From: Psococerastis gibbosa
Lineage: Eukaryota; Arthropoda; Insecta; Psocodea; Psocidae
Direction of reading: 5' to 3'
Assembly: GCA_963971405.1 (NCBI GenBank)
Contig: OZ020491.1
Span: forward strand, 16,982,855 to 17,046,854
Length of the DNA stretch: 64,000 nucleotides
Made by a program: the position numbers and the translations under genes. Numbering within the stretch: the first letter of the stretch is position 1; each line of letters opens with the position of its first letter. Shown in pieces: positions 45,828-46,347 of this stretch. The notes beneath the pieces are model-generated. The model had not been told where the DNA came from, made no database searches, and saw only the letters and a program-made list of their open reading frames with translations.

Positions 45828-45839
45828 TACAACTTACAT
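45828..45839 (+). repeat. Target-site duplication, left copy
   Basis: TACAACTTACAT, identical to 46336-46347. In other copies of the host repeat the matching site occurs once (TACAACTTxxATGAGCC). Confidence 0.85.
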
Positions 45840-46064
45840 TGCTATTCGTCTATCAGCAAACATAATTGCAGGCCACCTCTTAATAACTCTTCTAGGTAAT
45901 ACCGGCCCTAGACTATCAATTATTATATTGAATGTTCTTATTTTTACCCAAATTCTCTTATTAACTTTAGAGACAGCCGTCGCTTTCATCCAATCATATG
46001 TATTCGCAATTTTAGCCACCCTATATTCAACAGAAACTAATTAATGTTAACACAAAATCACCCT
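45840..46064 (+). pseudogene. Nuclear mitochondrial insert: ATP6 3' end and COX3 start
   Basis: Read with the invertebrate mitochondrial code, 45841-46044 gives [44 protein letters not shown] and [14 protein letters not shown]. This is the C-terminal 67 residues of ATP synthase subunit a. AGA must be read as Ser to give the conserved GPSLS, and ATA as Met. The stop overlaps an ATG by one base (TAATG), then MLTQNHP follows, the start of COX3. There are no frameshifts or extra stops, so the copy looks young. It cannot work in the nucleus. Confidence 0.95.
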
Positions 46065-46335
46065 TAGCACTTAGTCAATGTAAGTCAGAATGGCGTAGAG
46101 GTAACGACTCGGACTATCATCCAGAAGGTGACTGGTTCGAGTCCCACCCGAATGCCAAAATTTTCTAGTGGTACAATTATTTATCTTCTGACTACCATGC
46201 TTCGGAGGGCATGTAAAGCCGGCGGTCCCGGCAGTCTTCCCTGACTGTCGATAGGTTAAACAGGAGGCTGTTGATGCAACCTGAAAACTCCTGTACCACG
46301 GGTAGTACCACCCCGACACGAATTTACTTTTACTT
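46065..46335 (+). mobile_element. tRNA-derived SINE, type 3, fused to the mitochondrial fragment
   Basis: The tRNA-like head (GAATGGCGTAGAGGTAACGA as box A region, GGTTCGAGTCC as perfect box B) is followed by ATGCTTCGGAGGGCATGTAA as in type 1. The 3' body is different and ends GACACGAATTTACTTTTACT. The 3' end abuts the right 12-bp duplication, so it is the priming end of the insertion. Confidence 0.85.
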
Positions 46336-46347
46336 TACAACTTACAT
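46336..46347 (+). repeat. Target-site duplication, right copy
   Basis: TACAACTTACAT, identical to 45828-45839. Confidence 0.85.

Follow-up and report, generated by a model that had tools for sequence, protein, structure and literature searches.

A nuclear insert in Psococerastis gibbosa joins a mitochondrial ATP6-COX3 fragment to a tRNA-type SINE within one target-site duplication

In the nuclear genome of Psococerastis gibbosa, a fragment of mitochondrial sequence lies directly in front of a SINE, and this arrangement raises the question of whether the two arrived together and from which molecule the mitochondrial part was copied. The locus occupies positions 45828-46347 of a stretch of 64,000 nucleotides (here called the window; C19:16982855-17046854 of a 409-Mb genome with 68 contigs). 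A previous sequence-only reading had proposed a single insertion, made by a reverse transcriptase that started on SINE RNA and jumped to a mitochondrial transcript.

The insert consists of 496 bp enclosed by exact 12-bp repeats, TACAACTTACAT, located on the plus strand at 45828-45839 and 46336-46347, as that reading had described. Exact matches are found nowhere else in the window (at one mismatch or less, six window sites as compared to 0.59 expected). The host sequence is a MITE-like repeat, an imperfect palindrome of about 290 bp with inverted halves, whose left and right parts cover 45600-45839 and 46348-46400 of the plus strand (the right border, placed by alignment with other window copies, is approximate). 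Four other copies in the window, at 4133-4429, 25296-25597, 47513-47816 and 1533-1794, align across the site; they are continuous there, and each contains a single copy of the duplicated stretch. Since these four related repeats run through the site, the 12-bp repeat is a real duplication and not ancestral host sequence, and the empty site is known, in agreement with what had been claimed. The left duplication lies 243 bp upstream of the SINE start, at the start of the mitochondrial part; nothing is duplicated around the SINE alone, and the sole duplication encloses both parts. Together with the empty site and a single exact joint, this confirms that the mitochondrial piece and the SINE were inserted as one unit: a single SINE insertion brought in the mitochondrial 5' end. 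Nuclear mitochondrial sequences (numts) formed by end joining carry no target duplication or a very short one, whereas here it measures 12 bp and encloses the SINE. We also noticed that the mitochondrial end ATGTAAGT (46078-46085), when reverse-complemented, reads as the final 8 bases of the duplication (45832-45839); the chance of this 8-nt complementarity is about 0.001, as noticed post hoc, and no mechanism that we tried fits it.

The mitochondrial part (45840-46086, plus strand) is in sense orientation and runs from the 3' part of ATP6 into the start of COX3. It was aligned to the species' own mitochondrial DNA, which is contig C68 (17,084 bp) of the same genome. The alignment is gapless, spans 45839-46084 and shows 93.9% identity over 246 bp, which bears out the proposed ATP6/COX3 identity and makes this part of the insert a numt, i.e., a nuclear copy of the same species' mitochondrial DNA. 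Base 45839 also fits the mitochondrial sequence, and at the other end the match extends to 46086, since the source continued GTAAGTCC, as read from other nuclear copies. The length is thus about 247 bp instead of the 225 bp first estimated. By eye, the frames of C68 hold what we take to be the usual mitochondrial proteins, in an arthropod-like, rearranged gene order; ARAGORN called 26 tRNAs in this contig, some surely false. Between the window copy and C68 there are 15 differences, 11 of them at third codon positions and 10 of them synonymous. A functional mitochondrial gene as the source would be expected to leave such mostly synonymous differences.

The second part of the insert is a full-length tRNA-type SINE (46083-46335, plus strand), which lacks only the usual first GT and whose tail is made of TTTAC units. 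It has a tRNA-like head (A-box- and B-box-like stretches were identified by eye), its 3' tail is simple, and its dispersed copies carry target duplications. ARAGORN (bacterial mode) called no intact tRNA in the window, and no Rfam family was reported there. Among 40 scored of 872 candidates, the window copy being the 40th, 39 other places match 46083-46335 at 100% (38 at full length and one over 252 of 253 bp), so the earlier description of a complete-looking tRNA-SINE was right. All of these 39 sister copies, a best-scoring sample, were fetched. Most of them start with GTAGTCAGAATGG, in which GT directly precedes AGTC, and in 27 of the 39, a duplication of 8-17 bp (10-14 bp in 20 of these 27) stops no more than 5 bases from AGTC. 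A 12-bp duplication is therefore typical for the SINE family of the fused copy. A convincing duplication was not found in L042, L047, L053, L059 and L095 among the 39. At the window positions 46400-46600 we also observed a second SINE type, with a tRNA-like head and a CATGCTTCGGAGGGCATG domain in common with the fused SINE; it has further window matches at 2629-2808, 6677-6854, 21886-21983, 29259-29374 and 55167-55346.

The sister copies are informative on what happens at the SINE 5' end. Four of the 39 (L054, L057, L068 and L100, the last with a duplication of only 8 bp) carry additional, incomplete SINE heads, which lie after the duplication and in front of the SINE. The presence of these heads inside the duplications indicates that, on reaching the SINE 5' end, the machinery switches to another template in about one in ten copies of this best-scoring sample. 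L054, L068 and L100 show a nearly identical break after GGCGTAGA. Among the other 35 sister copies, 27 are plain at this place, and L062, L098 and L099 have 9-12 unexplained or repeat-like bases. No mitochondrial end was present on the SINE in any of the 39 copies examined, so a mitochondrial 5' end shared by the SINE's relatives, which had been raised as an objection to the fusion, was not found among them. Only at L064 was there any mitochondrial match in the sister loci (76% over 83 bp, about 1 kb from the SINE).

The two parts are fused directly, without a gap, and overlap in four bases, AGTC (46083-46086, plus strand), which belong to both the mitochondrial end and the SINE start. The junction had been placed at 46064/46065, about 20 bp too early. 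It does fall at the SINE start, which is at 46083, but not exactly at its usual first base, as the GT is missing and AGTC is shared. The exact 19-bp junction occurs once in the whole genome. A search with two mismatches gave 8 matches in all vs. 33 for a reversed-pattern control, and no mitochondrial match was found in the 3 kb fetched around each of the 7 other loci.

For other nuclear copies of the mitochondrial segment, the genome was searched with the mitochondrial part of the window (40 scored of 81 candidates; these 40, C68 being one of them, were all fetched), and 13 further loci were obtained with a 111-bp query beside the hairpin described below. This gives a total of 52 nuclear loci, including the window, in which one event is counted twice (L082 and L083, with identical flanks). 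In 44 of these 52 loci, the mitochondrial sequence ends at 16074-16116, i.e., within 43 nt (coordinates of the C68 reverse complement); the other eight end at 15994 (two loci), 16012, 16028, 16046, 16128, 16143 and 16166. Within this zone lies a GC-rich COX3 hairpin, ATGGCCCC-TTACA-GGGGCCAT, at 16090-16110. In a scan of the mitochondrial genome, it ranked first among perfect hairpins outside the control region, and no hairpin anywhere in that genome had as many G-C pairs. By RNA energy, calculated over 40-nt windows, COX1 has a slightly stronger place at 13146 (-17.5 vs. -16.5), and the local RNA fold at the COX3 hairpin is only moderately better than shuffles (z -1.88). The left ends of the hairpin-ended copies are spread out, and the lengths of the 44 copies range from 85 to 336 bp, except for L013. 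Over the length that could be aligned, L030, L032, L080 and L090 do not differ from C68 (100% identity). A stop codon in COX3 of the window copy (16069) is absent from nine other copies compared. To judge from these ends and identities, the nuclear copies appear to represent repeated capture from mitochondria and not one family.

Sequence to the right of the hairpin is also represented in the nucleus. A tile covering that side has 35 nuclear matches, of which 8 come within 17 bases of its left edge. One of these 8, L036, spans the hairpin. The left ends of the 7 others, all fetched, lie at 16083-16126; these copies are older (80-91% identity) and were chosen by their start position, so that the three starting past 16116 count for little. 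We had considered that copies lie strictly to the left of the hairpin and dropped this idea, since right-side copies also break at or just past it. The zone of breaks at the hairpin is shared by copies from both sides, with recent copies almost wholly on the left. At L009, a hairpin-ended mitochondrial insert, the right flank contains a 16-bp inverted copy of the left junction, mitochondrial bases included, which by eye is a fold-back repair signature.

The preference for this zone was compared with control tiles of C68, counting nuclear matches with at least 94% identity over at least 80 bp. The tile beside the hairpin gave 37 of 39 scored matches; these are the best 40 of 73 candidates, which makes the 37 a minimum and overstates the proportion, and the tile measures 111 bp vs. 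251 bp for the others. The tile just right of the hairpin gave 1 of 35, the ATP6 upstream tile 3 of 30, the COX1 tile 2 of 37, and a tile around the COX1 fold 1 of 26; one long insert on C14 is counted in the hairpin, COX1, ATP6 and COX1-fold tiles. A strong fold alone is insufficient, because the COX1 fold is no hotspot. The 16S tile gave 5 of 39 scored (best 40 of 134 candidates, C68 included), and 29 of its 39 nuclear matches stop at query 130-132, which looks like one dispersed repeat. A dispersed LINE-like repeat (L103-L110; for example L103:957-1188, and L104 on the minus strand) carries a piece of mitochondrial 16S rRNA, followed 7-9 bp on by a piece of the tRNA-Asp region. This 16S/tRNA joint was present in all 8 fetched copies, 6 of which have a CATTT-type tail, with a shorter one in L110, and L104 contains what we take, by eye, to be a reverse-transcriptase-like C-terminal frame.

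Further fusions were looked for among the 52 loci. The head of the fused SINE is absent from the mitochondrial end in all loci other than the window; near-identical copies of this SINE are found 886 and 169 bp away in L011 and L028, in opposite orientation. Many matches stop at query 245-247, which had suggested a multicopy mitochondria-SINE element, a candidate discarded because this is merely the end of the window's mitochondrial part. We also searched, up to 1,400 bp, for a distant duplication separated from the mitochondrial end by a retroelement, and only the window locus was convincing: the rejected duplications were low-complexity, repeat flanks, lone 10-mers or, at L018, a local duplicate (in control pairs, duplications of at least 10 bp occurred in 36 of 1,444 at the 1,400-bp range and in 2 of 1,444 within 60 bp). 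At L019, mitochondrial sequence ending in the hairpin zone is followed by 7 unplaced nt and about 35 A, all inside a 10-bp duplication; this looks like a second retrotransposition-type fusion in the same orientation.

Most of the other copies do not carry such marks. Applying the rule that a duplication be exact, not low-complexity, at least 8 bp long and within 60 bp, four of the 51 loci with both flanks have one besides the window (L004, L006, L012 and L019; L004 and L006 lie, by eye, at palindrome centres), and 46 of the 51 have none of at least 8 bp (two of the 46 being one event present twice). At L018, a local duplicate shows the empty site, where about 8 bp were replaced. L039 is a mitochondrial insert ending at the hairpin inside a different SINE type, of which about 13 bp are missing; no duplication was found there, and we read it as a probable break patch. 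L013 aligns over 1,760 bp through ATP6 and COX2, including the two tRNA genes between them, and COX1 tiles match the same C14 stretch in step with it, so that it is collinear with the mitochondrial genome over about 3 kb at every tile tested. L013 retains the tRNAs, which a mature transcript would be without. At L011, L014, L020, L025 and L085, CCCC is followed by 3 to 6 bases of the inverted loop (at L085 only TGT, a weak case), and the true loop is found in 11 loci at the hairpin; inverted-loop reads are what a strand-switching polymerase leaves inside a palindrome. These features favour a DNA origin for most nuclear copies, which would then be break patches. It seems that a mitochondrial molecule with its end at the hairpin, which was probably DNA, served repeatedly as break filler, and once for a SINE.

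For the fused copy, we lean towards a template jump from SINE RNA to a short mitochondrial nucleic acid, in the course of target-primed reverse transcription by a partner LINE. The SINE RNA would be inserted by this machinery, giving the 12-bp duplication; the reverse transcriptase would quit the SINE RNA 2 nucleotides before its 5' end and, by means of the 4-nt AGTC match, move on to a short mitochondrial nucleic acid, copying its sense strand from a 3' end at or beside the hairpin near the COX3 start. About 247 nt would be copied, into ATP6, before joining to the upstream target end. The jump itself, the involvement of a partner LINE and the kind of mitochondrial molecule copied are all inferred. 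Because 4 of the 39 sister SINEs switch template there, a jump via AGTC explains the window locus without a new rule, and the mitochondrial end of the window lies inside the 43-nt zone common to 44 of the 52 fetched loci. Against it, the jumps of the sister SINEs land on SINE sequence and not on mitochondrial nucleic acid. A switch at the SINE 5' end, as originally proposed, is plausible; a mitochondrial transcript is only a possible template for it. Both parts do lie in sense orientation, with no tRNA inside the insert, which fits RNA, but with one event the orientation alone carries no weight and cannot discriminate, and the related nuclear copies look DNA-derived. Right-side copies break at the hairpin as well; this is more in line with broken DNA than with a single special transcript and slightly weakens the case for the jump. 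RNA and DNA are both possible templates at the window locus, and the mitochondrial molecule was more probably single-stranded DNA than RNA.

A DNA fragment captured while the SINE 5' end was being joined would yield the same product. In that account, which we consider possible but less probable than the jump, the free end of a near-complete SINE copy was joined by microhomology end joining with a fragment of mitochondrial DNA as filler. The AGTC joint suits end joining, the same segment recurs without target duplications (46 of 51 loci have none of at least 8 bp), about 8 bp were lost at the empty site of L018 and about 13 bp of an older SINE replaced at L039, and the 3-kb collinearity of L013 means that DNA with a hairpin end exists. 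However, an additional end-joining step is needed, and the hairpin end faces the SINE in the window and the A tail in L019 (2 of 2, few cases), whereas a free fragment should be joined either way. Two separate insertions that happen to be adjacent are extremely unlikely: both kinds are common in the genome, and L028 indeed has a SINE of the fused type 169 bp from a mitochondrial insert, in opposite orientation, but a separately inserted SINE would need target repeats of its own, and in the window the single pair of repeats surrounds both parts; the joint is gapless with 4 shared bases. Amplification of a single chimeric element, in place of repeated capture from mitochondria, is also a very improbable source of the nuclear copies. 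One end zone is common to many copies, as such an element would have it, yet the head of the fused SINE adjoins mitochondrial sequence in the window copy alone, both ends vary between copies, the copies branch in a tree at successive points of the mitochondrial lineage, several show no difference from present mitochondrial DNA over the length they cover, and most of the changes between the window copy and C68 are synonymous.

The recurrent end may be tentatively explained by stalling or breakage at the COX3 hairpin, which might be a cryptic origin of replication; short DNAs, mostly under 300 nt and ending at the hairpin, might be released there, leak to the nucleus and be used again and again to patch broken chromosomes, as well as serving as acceptor templates when a LINE enzyme reverse-transcribes, giving mitochondria-SINE fusions.

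Foreign RNA-retroelement fusions are already known. WEIRD/Mg-SINE and WEIRD/MGL of Magnaporthe grisea are bipartite chimeric retroelements explained by template switches, in which a 5' copy of a foreign RNA is fused to a 3' SINE or LINE with one duplication around both; that of WEIRD-MgSINE measures 12 bp, as at the window locus (PMC2104539). They differ in the partner, which is WEIRD RNA and not mitochondrial ('mitochondri' is absent from the main text of that article). Primate chimeras of U6, 5S, tRNA or 28S with LINE-1 likewise have a 5' partner joined to a retroelement and duplications of similar size, and their partners are often recurrent fragments with preferred ends, but the retroelement is LINE-1 and the partners are non-mitochondrial, 'mitochondri' being again absent from the main text (PMC13174262). 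End-joining numts share with the window locus a nuclear mitochondrial piece and microhomology, mostly without large duplications; in primates, duplications were reported in 17 of 71 events and are only 1-11 nt long, and no SINE fusion inside one duplication was found in the text of these reports (PMC2567098, PMC2820518). Human templated sequence insertions, for which mitochondrial donors are known, fall into class 1, with duplications and LINE features, and class 2, which are break patches; they differ in that neither a SINE fusion nor a fixed hairpin end was found in that article (PMC5110952). In the literature searched, mostly without subscription journals, no retroelement fusion with a mitochondrial partner is described, and nothing was found on numt ends at hairpins. 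What is new here is the mitochondrial partner and its tie to a hairpin end. On the question of which mitochondrial molecules reach the nucleus, the shared end points to a defined candidate, a short fragment with a known end, and it shows that numt donors need not be random pieces. With its direct fusion and one duplication around both parts, the window locus appears to belong with the bipartite chimeric retroelements.
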